Of a stretch of DNA of 64,000 bases, positions 20,588 through 58,303 are shown in pieces. The stretch's first letter is position 1. Each line of letters begins with the position of its first letter. The stretch is from assembly GCF_016901775.1 (NCBI RefSeq), contig NZ_JACJKW010000001.1:186001-250000 (forward strand), read 5' to 3'. The notes under the pieces are model-generated. The model was not told the origin of the DNA, did no database searches, and worked only from the letters and a program-made list of their open reading frames with translations. The position numbers and the translations under genes are program-made. Origin of the DNA: Intestinimonas butyriciproducens. GTDB lineage: Bacteria > Bacillota > Clostridia > Oscillospirales > Butyricicoccaceae.

Positions 20588-20616
20588 AAGCAGCGCCGCA
20601 TTTCGCGGCGCTGCTT
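20588..20616 (+). terminator. Terminator hairpin, left duplicate flanking repeat element A
   Basis: AAGCAGCGCCGC-ATTT-GCGGCGCTGCTT type hairpin, 29 bp, identical to 20871-20899. This copy keeps the A run on its left but has no T run on its right. Confidence 0.85.
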
Positions 20617-20870
20617 CAGACTGTCGAAAAACCTATATAACGAAAAGGGTCATCCGCCCTACCCCTATAAATCCGCAAAAAGCCGCGACCTGTGCGTGGC
20701 TTTTTGCACTTCTCAAGGGCGGGGCGCCCGCTGGCAAACATTCTTTGCCCGGGTCAACACAACCGGCCAAGGCAAAGAAAGGAACGGGTCCAGCGTCACG
20801 CTGGGCGGCTCGCCGCCAGCCCCTTGCAAAAACTCGAAAAAGTGGCCTAAGCCACTTTTTCGACACGCTC
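20617..20870 (+). mobile_element. Structured repeat element, copy A
   Basis: A 254 bp insert separates two identical copies of the same 29 bp terminator hairpin. Its ends carry imperfect inverted repeats (TGTCGAAAAA at the left end and its complement at the right end). Inside are a long hairpin built from GCAAAAAGCC and GGCTTTTTGC, and a right-end hairpin AAAAAGTGGC/GCCACTTTTT. It shares these blocks in order with copies B (52016-52205) and C (58101-58278), but has about 72 bp extra in the centre. It lies between convergent genes and has no transposase. I infer a non-autonomous mobile element. Confidence 0.7.
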
Positions 20871-20899
20871 AAGCAGCGCCGCATTTCGCGGCGCTGCTT
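20871..20899 (+). terminator. Terminator hairpin, right duplicate flanking repeat element A
   Basis: Identical to the 29 bp hairpin at 20588-20616. This copy is followed by the T run and so is the functional rightward terminator. Confidence 0.85.
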
Positions 20900-30948: not shown

Positions 30949-31054
30949 AGACTGTGGAAAAACCGATATAGCCAGAGGGAAGCATTTGCTTTACCTCTTA
31001 TCAATTTGCAAACCCCAGACCTGTGCGCCGGTTTTTGCATCTCTTAAAAAGGAC
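30949..31054 (+). repeat. Repeat family remnant D (left half)
   Basis: Degenerate left part of the same element as copy A. It shares the terminal block AGACTGT.GAAAAACC.ATATA and the central GACCTGTGCG..GGTTTTTGCA. No right end or flanking duplicated hairpin is visible. It lies between the zinc-ribbon gene and the MATE promoter. Confidence 0.6.
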
Positions 31055-50676: not shown

Positions 50677-50718
50677 TTACGCGGCAGGGCCGCAGATTTT
50701 TGCGTTTGAGGTGTGACT

Positions 50719-51978
50719 ATGATCGAAAAAATCACTTTGCCCAACGGCGTGCGTATTCTTTATGAGCAGGTTCCCTCGGTGCGCTCTTGCGCCCTGGGCG
50801 TTTGGGTGGAAAGCGGCTCCCGTCATGAGCCGGAAGAGCTGGGAGGCATTTCCCACTACATCGAGCATATGCTGTTCAAAGGCACCGAAAGCCGCACAGC
50901 GGCCCAGCTGGCCACCGCCTTTGACGCCATTGGCGGCCAGGTCAATGCCTTTACTACAAAAGAAAACACCTGCTATTATGCCCGGGTGCTGGATACCCAC
51001 ATCCAGGAAGCCGCCGATCTTCTGTGCGATATGTATTTCCACTCCCGGTTCGGCCGGCAGGAGACCGATCTGGAGCGGGGCGTCATTCTGGAAGAGATCG
51101 GCATGTATGAAGACACCCCCGACGATCTGGTGATCGAGCGGCTGTCCTCTGCCATTTACAAGGGCTCTTCCCTGGGCCGTCCCATTCTGGGCACCCGGGA
51201 GACCCTGGAGAAGATTCAGGGAGATACCCTGCGGGATTATTGCAGCAGCCGTTATTCTGCCGCCAATACCGTGGTGTCGGTAGCCGGCAGCTTTACCATG
51301 AACGACATCGACCAGATCGCCCGCCGGTTTGAAAAGATGCCCGGGGGAGAGCCGCTGACAGCGCCTCAGGCCGTCTATCAGCCCTCCTTTACCACCAAGA
51401 CCAAGGACATTGAGCAGAACCATCTGTGCCTGGCCTTCCCCGGCATTGCCGCCGGAAGCCCGGACCGTTACCGGATGCAGGTGCTCAGCAACATCCTGGG
51501 CGGCGGAATGTCCTCCCGCCTGTTCCAGCGGGTGCGGGAGCAGAAGGGTCTGTGTTATACCATTTACTCCTTCTCTTCGGCTCATCGGGACACCGGCTAT
51601 TTCGGCGTCTATACCGCTTTGGGCCGCAGTACCGAAATGCAGGCTCTGGAGCTGATCGGCCAGGAAGTGCGGGCCTTTGCCCAGGAAGGCCCCACAGAGG
51701 AAGAGGTGCGGCGTTCGGTGGAGCAGCTGAAGAGCTCGGCTCTTATGAGCCTGGAAAGCATGAACAGCCGGATGAATGCCAACGCCCGGGGCGAGTTCCT
51801 TTATGGCCATCCCCTCAGCGCCGAGGACATCATCCGCGGCTACGATGCCGTCACCCGGGATGGAGTCCATCAGTTGGCTCAAGAGCTGTTTAAGCTGCCC
51901 AATGCCTCCTTCTCCGCTGTGGGCAAGGTTTCCTCCCAGGAGGAATACCAGGCCGTTATCCGCGCCGCCCTTTGCTGA
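50719..51978 (+). CDS. M16 family zinc peptidase
   Basis: Processing-peptidase-like metallopeptidase of 419 residues. The inverted zinc motif HxxEH is SHYIEHMLFKG near residue 47, with the third ligand region GVILEEIGMYEDTPDD. The second half is the inactive M16 repeat. Bacterial homologues such as YmxG/PqqL-type proteins lie next to pnp in many Firmicutes, as here. Start at ATG 5 bp after GAGGTG. Confidence 0.93.
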   Translation: MIEKITLPNGVRILYEQVPSVRSCALGVWVESGSRHEPEELGGISHYIEHMLFKGTESRTAAQLATAFDAIGGQVNAFTTKENTCYYARVLDTHIQEAADLLCDMYFHSRFGRQETDLERGVILEEIGMYEDTPDDLVIERLSSAIYKGSSLGRPILGTRETLEKIQGDTLRDYCSSRYSAANTVVSVAGSFTMNDIDQIARRFEKMPGGEPLTAPQAVYQPSFTTKTKDIEQNHLCLAFPGIAAGSPDRYRMQVLSNILGGGMSSRLFQRVREQKGLCYTIYSFSSAHRDTGYFGVYTALGRSTEMQALELIGQEVRAFAQEGPTEEEVRRSVEQLKSSALMSLESMNSRMNANARGEFLYGHPLSAEDIIRGYDAVTRDGVHQLAQELFKLPNASFSAVGKVSSQEEYQAVIRAALC

Positions 51979-51988
51979 AAAAAGAGAA

Positions 51989-52017
51989 CCCCGCCGTTTG
52001 CATAGCAAGCGGCGGGG
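51989..52017 (+). terminator. Terminator hairpin, left duplicate flanking repeat element B
   Basis: CCCCGCCGTTTGC pairs with GCAAGCGGCGGGG around ATA. The core 25 bp (51991-52015) match the right copy at 52206-52230 with two differences. There is no T run after this copy. Confidence 0.85.
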
Positions 52018-52205
52018 TGAGTGTTCCGAAAAAGTGGCTTAGGCCACTTTTTCGGGTTTTTGCAAGGGGCTGTGTGCAGCCATTCGGCCACACTGGCCCC
52101 TTGCAAGGTGCAAAAAGCCACCCGCAGGTCGCGGATTTTTGCGGATTGATGAGGGGGAGGAAACAGGTTTCGCTCCAGCTGGATCTGTTTTGCGATAGTC
52201 TGAAT
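52016..52205 (-). mobile_element. Structured repeat element, copy B
   Basis: About 190 bp between two near-identical terminator hairpins, in reverse orientation to copy A. Read on the minus strand, it starts TTCAGACTATCG and contains AATCCGCAAAAATCCGCGACC, then GTGGCTTTTTGCA. It continues to CAGCCCCTTGCAAAAAC and ends with the hairpin AAAAAGTGGC/GCCACTTTTT. These blocks are shared with A and C in the same order. It separates the convergent M16 peptidase and ornithine-cyclodeaminase-family genes. No protein gene is convincingly present. Confidence 0.7.
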
Positions 52206-52232
52206 CCGCCGCTTGAATAGCAAGCGGCGGAT
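52204..52232 (-). terminator. Terminator hairpin, right duplicate flanking repeat element B
   Basis: ATCCGCCGCTTG pairs with CAAGCGGCGGAT. The plus-strand side continues into ATTTTC. It also serves as the first hairpin after the leftward ornithine-cyclodeaminase-family gene. Confidence 0.85.
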
Positions 52233-52263
52233 TTTCTGTACAGGTCGGATTTTGATCAACAGA

Positions 52264-53247
52264 TCAGCCGATTTCCACCATGGTGCCCCTTCCTTTTTCC
52301 AGGGCCAGCCGGTAAATAAGGTGGGCGGCGGACAGGTCTTCCACAGCAATGCCCACCGATTCAAAAAAGGTGATTTCTTCCGGACTTTGCCGGCCGGGCA
52401 CGGTGCCCAGAAGCACCTGGCCCACTTCGCCCCGGATGTTGTCCATGGAAAGCTCCCCTTTTTCCAGAGGGATCACCAGATCTCCGCCGTCCCGCAAAGC
52501 GGCCTGGCGCTGATCCAGGTAGATGGCCGAGCGGCAGACGGTGCGGCTGTCCACCTCCCGGGCTGTGGGGGCGCAGGCGCCTACGGCGTTGATGTGGGCG
52601 CCTTTTTTGATCCATTCTCCTTTCACCAGCGGTTCCTTGGCCTGGGTAACGGTGCAGAGAATATCCGCCTGTTCTACGGCTTCATGAGGAGTTTTGCACA
52701 GGACGGCCGTGAGCCCCAGCTGCTCTTCTGCCCATTTGCAGCAGGCTTCTCCACCGGCGGGAGTGCGGTTCCAAACGAAGACACGGCGGATGGGGCGCAC
52801 CTGGGATATGGCCTGGATATGCATCCGGCCAATGCGCCCGGCGCCCAGCAGTCCCAGGTCACAGCTGCCCTCCCGGGCCAGCACACGGGTGGCCGCGGCG
52901 CTGGCTGCGGCGGTGCGCAGCGCAGTAATGTGCTCGGCGTCCACAATGGCCAGAAGAGCGCCGGTAACGCTGTCAAACAAGGGGATAATTCCCTGACTGG
53001 TGCCGTTTTTCTTGGCCTCGGCGCCGGGAAAGACAATGGTCTTGACGCCGCAGATTTCCTGCTGCTGGTTGTCCGATGCCATGAGAGCAAACATATTTCC
53101 CTTTTTCTGAGGCATCATGCTCCGCTGAAGCATAGCGGTTTTTCCGGCAGAAATGTCCCGGAATGTTTCCTCCATGGCACAGATGCAGGCTTCCATGGTG
53201 AGAAGTTCTTCTGCGTCTTTTTTTCCGATGATCAGAGTCTGGTTCAT
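52264..53247 (-). CDS. Ornithine cyclodeaminase / mu-crystallin family oxidoreductase
   Basis: NAD(P)-dependent enzyme of 327 residues. It has the substrate-side LRTAAASAAATRVLA, the Rossmann turn GLLGAGRIGRMHIQA near residue 130, the HINAVGACAPTAREVD block and the late ESVGIAVEDLSAA. Family members include ornithine cyclodeaminase, alanine dehydrogenase and ketimine reductases, and the substrate cannot be told here. It has its own promoter and runs towards repeat element B. Confidence 0.9.
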   Translation of the reverse strand: MNQTLIIGKKDAEELLTMEACICAMEETFRDISAGKTAMLQRSMMPQKKGNMFALMASDNQQQEICGVKTIVFPGAEAKKNGTSQGIIPLFDSVTGALLAIVDAEHITALRTAAASAAATRVLAREGSCDLGLLGAGRIGRMHIQAISQVRPIRRVFVWNRTPAGGEACCKWAEEQLGLTAVLCKTPHEAVEQADILCTVTQAKEPLVKGEWIKKGAHINAVGACAPTAREVDSRTVCRSAIYLDQRQAALRDGGDLVIPLEKGELSMDNIRGEVGQVLLGTVPGRQSPEEITFFESVGIAVEDLSAAHLIYRLALEKGRGTMVEIG

Positions 53248-53290: not shown

Positions 53291-53319
53291 ATTATAAAAC
53301 GAAAAAAAGGCGGCCGCAA
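53291..53319 (-). promoter_or_regulatory. Promoter of the ornithine-cyclodeaminase-family gene
   Basis: TTGCGG at 53314-53319 and TATAAT at 53291-53296, 17 bp spacing. The -35 box lies in the loop of the preceding terminator hairpin. Confidence 0.7.
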
Positions 53320-53333
53320 GGCCGCCTTTTGAA
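53306..53333 (-). terminator. Terminator of the DUF3592 gene
   Basis: AAAAGGCGGCC pairs with GGCCGCCTTTT around TTGC on the minus strand, with a longer T run after it. Confidence 0.85.
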
Positions 53334-53344
53334 TGTGCCCTCAA

Positions 53345-53400
53345 AGGGGCAAAAGCCAATATTCCGGTTTTTACAAGAGGCTGTGTGCGGTGCGGGACAT
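53345..53400 (-). repeat. Repeat family remnant E (right half)
   Basis: On the minus strand GCACACAGCCTCTTGTAAAA and the following CCGG..TATTGGC match the right half of copies B and C. The left half and duplicated hairpins are absent. It lies directly at the stop codon of the DUF3592 gene. Confidence 0.5.
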
Positions 53401-58075: not shown

Positions 58076-58100
58076 AAGCCCTGGTATGCAGGGCTTTTTT
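58076..58100 (-). terminator. Terminator hairpin, left duplicate flanking repeat element C
   Basis: AAGCCCTG-GTATG-CAGGGCTT followed by T, identical over 25 bp to 58279-58303. On the minus strand this copy keeps its T run and is the effective terminator for nrdG. Confidence 0.85.
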
Positions 58101-58278
58101 GTTGTTGAAAACGACATAGGCAGGAAGGAGCTTTTGCCCTATCCCGAATCAATCTGCAAAAAGTCACGACCTGTGGGTGGCTTTTTGCACTTCTCAAGGG
58201 GCCAGTGTGGCCGGTGGGCTGCACGCAGCCCCTTGCAAAAACTCGAAAAAGTGGCATAGCCACTTTTTCCACATGTGT
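58101..58278 (+). mobile_element. Structured repeat element, copy C
   Basis: A 178 bp insert between two identical copies of the nrdG terminator hairpin. It has the long hairpin GCAAAAAGTC.../GGCTTTTTGCA, a central palindromic GGGGCCAGTGTGGCC and the CTGCACGCAG-CCCCTTGCAAAA block. The right-end hairpin is AAAAAGTGGC/GCCACTTTTT. These match copies A and B block by block. Orientation is opposite to that of the nearest gene nrdG, so the element is not simply part of one gene's 3' end. Confidence 0.7.
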
Positions 58279-58303
58279 AAGCCCTGGTATGCAGGGCTTT
58301 TTT
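58279..58303 (-). terminator. Terminator hairpin, right duplicate flanking repeat element C
   Basis: Same 25 bp as 58076-58100. It begins in the nrdG stop codon. On the minus strand its T run is cut off by the element, leaving ACAC. Confidence 0.85.

Follow-up and report, generated by a model that had tools for sequence, protein, structure and literature searches.

An element of 184 bp lodged between two copies of a terminator hairpin in Intestinimonas butyriciproducens (copy B in the window, the whole stretch of 64,000 nucleotides analysed here) is very probably a non-autonomous MITE with ends that the DDE transposase of an IS1182 clade of Oscillospiraceae recognises; this clade targets hairpins and duplicates them whole. 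The features that can be read directly from the sequences are an element family with terminal inverted repeats (TIRs), duplication of an entire hairpin centred on its dyad axis, an empty site holding one hairpin, and the same features in full IS1182 elements.

Copy B and its family in the genome

Along with two decayed fragments, the window holds three full copies of the family, whose coordinates are given in Table 1.

Table 1. Features of the three full copies in the window and of the genes flanking copy B
Feature	Position	Strand	Basis or remark
Copy A, whole unit	20588-20899	-	genome survey label L032
Copy A element, 254 bp	20617-20870	-	hairpin-2 tip longer
Copy A flanking hairpins, 29 nt	20871-20899 and 20588-20616		identical
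Gene, M16 peptidase	50713-51978	+	flanks copy B
Copy B, whole unit with both hairpins	51988-52233		
Duplicated terminator hairpin, left copy, 31 nt	51988-52018	.	sequence
MITE copy B, 184 bp	52019-52202	+	limits set by TIRs and direct repeat
Left TIR of copy B, GAGTGTTCCGAAAAA	52019-52033	+	consensus GAGCGTGTCGAAAAA
Internal hairpin 1 of copy B	52026-52055	+	terminator-like: 14 pairs, then TTTTT
Internal hairpin 2 of copy B	52060-52106	+	outer stem conserved, tip variable
Core hairpin 3 of copy B	52108-52142	+	most widely conserved part; 67.4 bits, E 8e-17; covariation
Right TIR of copy B, - strand reads CAGACTATCGCAAAA	52188-52202	-	consensus CAGACTGTCGAAAAA
Duplicated terminator hairpin, right copy, 31 nt	52203-52233	.	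sequence
Gene, ornithine cyclodeaminase/mu-crystallin family	52264-53247	-	flanks copy B
Third copy, whole unit	58076-58303	-	genome survey label L013
Third copy element, 178 bp	58101-58278	-	
Third copy flanking hairpins, 25 nt	58279-58303 and 58076-58100		identical

The preliminary description had placed copy B, in reverse orientation, between two hairpins identical at 23 of 25 core positions. We found its coordinates right and reproduced that match (51991-52015 against 52206-52230); over the full repeat, 25 of 31 positions are identical. The orientation was also read correctly, since the matching counterparts of copy B (+ strand) at 20.6-20.9 kb and 58.1-58.3 kb are both on the opposite strand, and so was the convergence of the M16 peptidase gene (+) and the ornithine cyclodeaminase-like (OCD-like) gene (-). 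The changes in the outer stem are indeed compensated, with two C-G pairs on the left replaced by A-T and T-A on the right and pairing intact. Folded as single-stranded DNA, the left and right hairpins reach -16.4 and -16.7 kcal/mol, compared to averages of -5.5 and -4.1 kcal/mol for shuffled sequences, and 0 of 200 shuffles attained the observed value. In sequence, the left hairpin retains a T-run serving the leftward OCD-like gene (51979-51987 side), and the right hairpin one serving the rightward M16 peptidase gene.

The same description took copy B for an older insertion. Its element has 80% identity to the consensus, with group medians of 82-86%, a value consistent with the claim. Genome-wide, however, the divergence of the paired hairpins used as a clock was not significantly linked to the divergence of the elements (P = 0.27), and therefore an older insertion is a reasonable reading of copy B that is not demonstrated. 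At the same locus the congener G001 has a terminator and no element; at ≈75% identity, the two sequences are too diverged to define an exact empty site.

In the whole genome, a draft of 2.58 Mb in 74 contigs, the family has at least 60 copies (at least 62 if counted by distinct flanks), and 60 copies were testable for flanking repeats. A direct repeat scoring at least 16 flanks 38 of them, compared to 4 of 2,357 control pairings in which the left side of one copy was paired with the right side of another. The median element is 185 bp and the median duplication 26 nt, and the two hairpins are identical in 23 of the 38 pairs. Immediately outside the duplicated pair we observed 52% A before and 60% T after, as around bidirectional intrinsic terminators. 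The duplicated hairpin sequences vary from site to site; therefore, the hairpin is a part of the target rather than of the element. The remaining 22 copies have no clear duplication, some being truncated and some perhaps old. The family thus consists of short, gene-less, multicopy elements with imperfect TIRs (GAGCGTGTCGAAAAA on the left, CAGACTGTCGAAAAA on the right) and a target-site duplication, as is characteristic of MITEs.

The two decayed fragments are at 53303-53388 (+) and at about 30950-31050 (-). The former is a 5' fragment directly past a terminator hairpin (AAAGGCGGCCGCAAGGCCGCCTTT then GAATGTGCCC...GTTTTTACAAGAGGCTGTGTGC) and has 75% identity to copy B over 60 bp. The latter, a 3' fragment, retains a core that can still be recognised (27.5 bits, E 1.9e-5), as well as the right end CCACAGTCTGG.

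The interior and its core hairpin

Behind the left end come three hairpins, of which the first is terminator-like and the third is the core; in copy B the core is degenerate (CCCGCAGG in place of CGCACAGG). Of 217 genomes of the order, 22 have the core hairpin, spread over 11 of 122 genera in several families. It covaries strongly, with double changes at 6 of its 12 pairs (40 cells compared to 8.8 expected; 0 of 500 shuffles), and almost no variation occurs in its apical loop, G[CT][AG]CANG[CT]C. Neither the element nor the core matched an Rfam family at the gathering cut-off. With respect to strand preference, the counts of G-U and A-C pairs were 1 and 8 in the core hairpin, while hairpins 1 and 2 lean the opposite way. 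Such an inconsistency between the hairpins does not indicate transcription as RNA.

Several observations concern the arrangement of these hairpins. In several species of one genus, strings of core-bearing hairpins occupy a shared position with no duplicated terminator (L049-L054, L057), before an rbfA-like gene starting MSTRIDRISEEV; these strings are an old, fixed copy. Tandem arrays of core-bearing units with a period of 160-183 bp are present in L198 (1004-1839) and in L185 and L186 (1220-1857). The arrays of L185 (family f19) and L186 (family f3) look alike, which suggests transfer or contamination. Two copies, in the window at 20617-20870 (-) and in L042, carry a longer and different hairpin-2 tip (CTTTGC...GGGCAAAGAATGTTTGCC), so the tip is exchangeable while the base of the stem is kept.

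A core that is conserved across genera and families, covaries and has a nearly invariant loop could also belong to an element acting as a structured RNA or as single-stranded DNA, which the host carries for the function, cellular or selfish, that it performs; mobility through ends of the IS1182 type would then have come later or be secondary. Tandem arrays would fit such an element too, as would intergenic copies that recur at one position in several species and show no visible duplication. On the other hand, the element has no match at the Rfam gathering cut-off, the G-U strand preference differs between hairpins, and most of the analysable copies in the genome resemble insertions. We consider this account possible, though rather unlikely.

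If the element is a MITE, as we prefer, its interior could still matter. We tentatively suggest that the MITE serves as a vehicle for a still unnamed family of structured nucleic acids in the order; a transposase that has hairpins as its only insertion sites, and copies them, would spread the MITE, and the core would act in the cell, for example by binding a protein or an RNA. This proposal, too, is more doubtful than likely. If true, the element multiplies through the doubling of the terminators of its genome. The conserved and covarying core, unnamed and absent from Rfam, provides an additional lead across many gut bacteria.

An IS1182 clade with matching ends

A full insertion sequence with comparable ends was found in G047 (L084). 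It has 1,571 bp and one transposase of 492 aa, it lies between identical 30-bp terminator hairpins, and its ends are CAGTCTGTCGAAAAA and CAGCCTGTCGAGAAA, compared to CAGACTGTCGAAAAA for the right end of the MITE. The transposase belongs to the IS1182 family (NF033551, 403.5 bits at a cut-off of 270; domains DDE_Tnp_1_6 and DUF772). The right end of the MITE fits the end of the IS clade, CAGNCTGTCGAAAAA, while on the left only ≈12 of the 15 TIR positions agree with the IS. The IS found here is not the source of the MITE interior.

Scanning named genomes produced 80 relatives, mostly in Oscillospiraceae; their hosts include Flavonifractor, Pseudoflavonifractor and Oscillibacter valericigenes, the last with many copies. 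Most of the full-length relatives examined, in these genera and others, sit between duplicated perfect hairpins, and the 21 full IS copies that were measured likewise lie between duplicated hairpins centred on the dyad. Elements with protein identity of 46-93% duplicate hairpins, while no hairpin duplication was seen in distant IS1182 elements at 22-29%; therefore, hairpin duplication is a property of the clade. The strain O. valericigenes Sjm18-20 (L115-L122, L130-L136, L149), which is culturable, carries many copies of the clade, most of them between perfect duplicated hairpins. Other candidates, namely the PF13751 transposases in G028 (L076) and the distant IS1182 elements L270, L271, L273 and L274, had no matching ends or duplicated hairpins and were rejected.

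The shared right end and the shared mode of duplication suggest that an IS1182 transposase of this clade moves the MITE in trans. A further carrier of these MITEs, G005, has the C-terminal end of an IS1182-type transposase, and after it come the same end and a terminator hairpin. No IS1182 transposase was found in the draft assembly of the I. butyriciproducens genome, so its MITEs may be orphaned, with mobilisation in the past, or the IS may have been missed in the assembly. Absence of a transposase from the same genome is common for MITEs, and it weakens the claim of present activity, not that of origin.

The many short palindromic intergenic copies, and two truncated Y1 fragments in the same genome, also bring to mind a REP/REPIN-like element mobilised by a Y1 transposase (RAYT, IS200/IS605-type). 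Y1 transposons are not known to make target duplications, unlike the elements described here, and a Y1 protein is entirely lacking from the carriers G003, G028, G215 and G268. A Y1/RAYT mover was rejected on these two grounds, and we regard such an origin as very improbable.

Insertion into hairpins and relation to known systems

A pair of filled and empty sites was available for another member of the family. The element L074 of G005 is absent from the sister genome G006, in which flanks 99% identical to those of G005 overlap by exactly 33 bp, a single hairpin AAGGAACCGAAACTGTTTTGTTTCGGTTCCTTT. When the flanks were joined with one hairpin, a gap-free alignment to the empty site was obtained, with 99.4% identity over 650 bp. 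Exact excision in G006 would look identical; either way, the unit is the element and one hairpin.

The preliminary description had named stepwise accretion as what would contradict an insertion. Accretion would mean two terminators of separate origin or duplicated locally, with the stretch between them built or captured later. The 6 of 31 positions at which the hairpins of copy B differ would agree with it. However, at more than 30 sites this element is enclosed by duplicated hairpins whose sequence differs from site to site, most of the hairpin pairs are identical and the empty site has exactly one hairpin. Judged by this alignment, accretion is excluded at the L074 site, where the sequences indicate an insertion with target-site duplication of a whole terminator; for the family it is refuted, and we give it almost no credence. 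The proposed insertion into terminators with hairpin duplication is thus supported by the family, by the filled and empty sites and by the matching IS1182 elements. A terminator-seeking retroelement related to group IIC introns, which also insert next to terminator hairpins, would agree with the high degree of structure in the element but is as hard to credit. The element has a target duplication and inverted ends in common with a DDE insertion sequence, introns are not known to have either transposon-type inverted ends or target duplication, and no Rfam intron match was found in the window.

The geometry of the duplications was similar in the MITEs and in the IS. The centre of the duplication lies within 2 nt of the dyad axis in 28 of 33 MITE cases and in 20 of 21 IS cases, and the length of the duplication grows with the span of the hairpin (r = 0.48 and 0.58, respectively). 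The centring and the trend in length fit an enzyme that reads the hairpin and joins the element ends at its two feet.

In the mechanism that we propose, the transposase would choose its targets by structure, not sequence, the target being a perfect inverted repeat and usually a bidirectional intrinsic terminator, perhaps extruded as a cruciform. At the feet of the hairpin both strands would be joined to the element, in a manner symmetrical about the dyad axis, and repair of the gap with the single-stranded hairpin would yield the second whole copy. Each neighbouring gene would retain a hairpin followed by the T-run that serves it, and a further terminator-like hairpin would come from the element itself; therefore, a low cost of insertion for the host is expected. 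Termination is thus likely to be preserved after insertion, which would give a mobile element a way into the most harmless spot behind a gene, with a terminator left on each side.

The hairpins of copy B had been described as both kept able to fold, and the genome-wide comparison agrees for the most part. Across 37 hairpin pairs we counted 25 differences, 14 of which are in the loops that make up 19% of the sites (P = 3.5e-5). This concentration in loops suggests that stems are maintained in both copies, yet of the 11 differences in stems, 5 leave one copy with a broken pair. Maintenance of the stems may come from selection for termination or from palindrome repair, and the data do not separate the two.

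Among known systems, the nearest is the IS1182 family itself (NF033551). Its members share with our elements a partner transposase above the cut-off, the TIR length (inverted repeats of 16 bp are reported for IS1272) and inverted-repeat targets without a common sequence; they differ in that the window element has no transposase and that whole hairpins are duplicated in this clade. For IS1182, duplications of 0-60 bp are listed in ISfinder, and single hairpin-long examples may be recorded there. Hairpin targeting by IS1182 elements is already known; new here is a MITE family of an IS1182 clade that duplicates whole terminators.

Short, gene-less, TIR-bounded elements present in multiple intergenic copies with target duplication are familiar from the bacterial MITEs RUP, BOX, ERIC, SPRITE, MITEAba12 and BrickBuilt (PMC10969869). 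None of these, however, is described in that review as duplicating an entire terminator hairpin or as depending on IS1182, which is unmentioned there. REP elements used as IS targets (PMC1525189) are palindromic DNA as well, but they share sequence, while the targets here have only structure in common.

IS1272 and TnSha1 of staphylococci also target hairpins, many of them terminators, chosen by structure (PMC4923244, PMC5678879). IS1272, however, deletes or replaces the hairpin without duplication (PMC4923244, PMC5678879), whereas the clade described here duplicates it. Duplication of a whole stem-loop was drawn only as an alternative outcome (pathway b of Fig 13 in PMC5678879), and our elements match that outcome. 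In the literature searched, with most subscription papers and ISfinder outside the search, we found no whole-terminator target duplication beyond that drawing. The family provides dozens of natural products of structure-guided transposition, in which the duplication is exactly one hairpin and is centred on the axis, and it is directly relevant to the reading and cutting of palindromic DNA by IS1182 transposases. As a complement to the hairpin-removing IS1272, it makes the geometry of target cutting testable with the two clades together.
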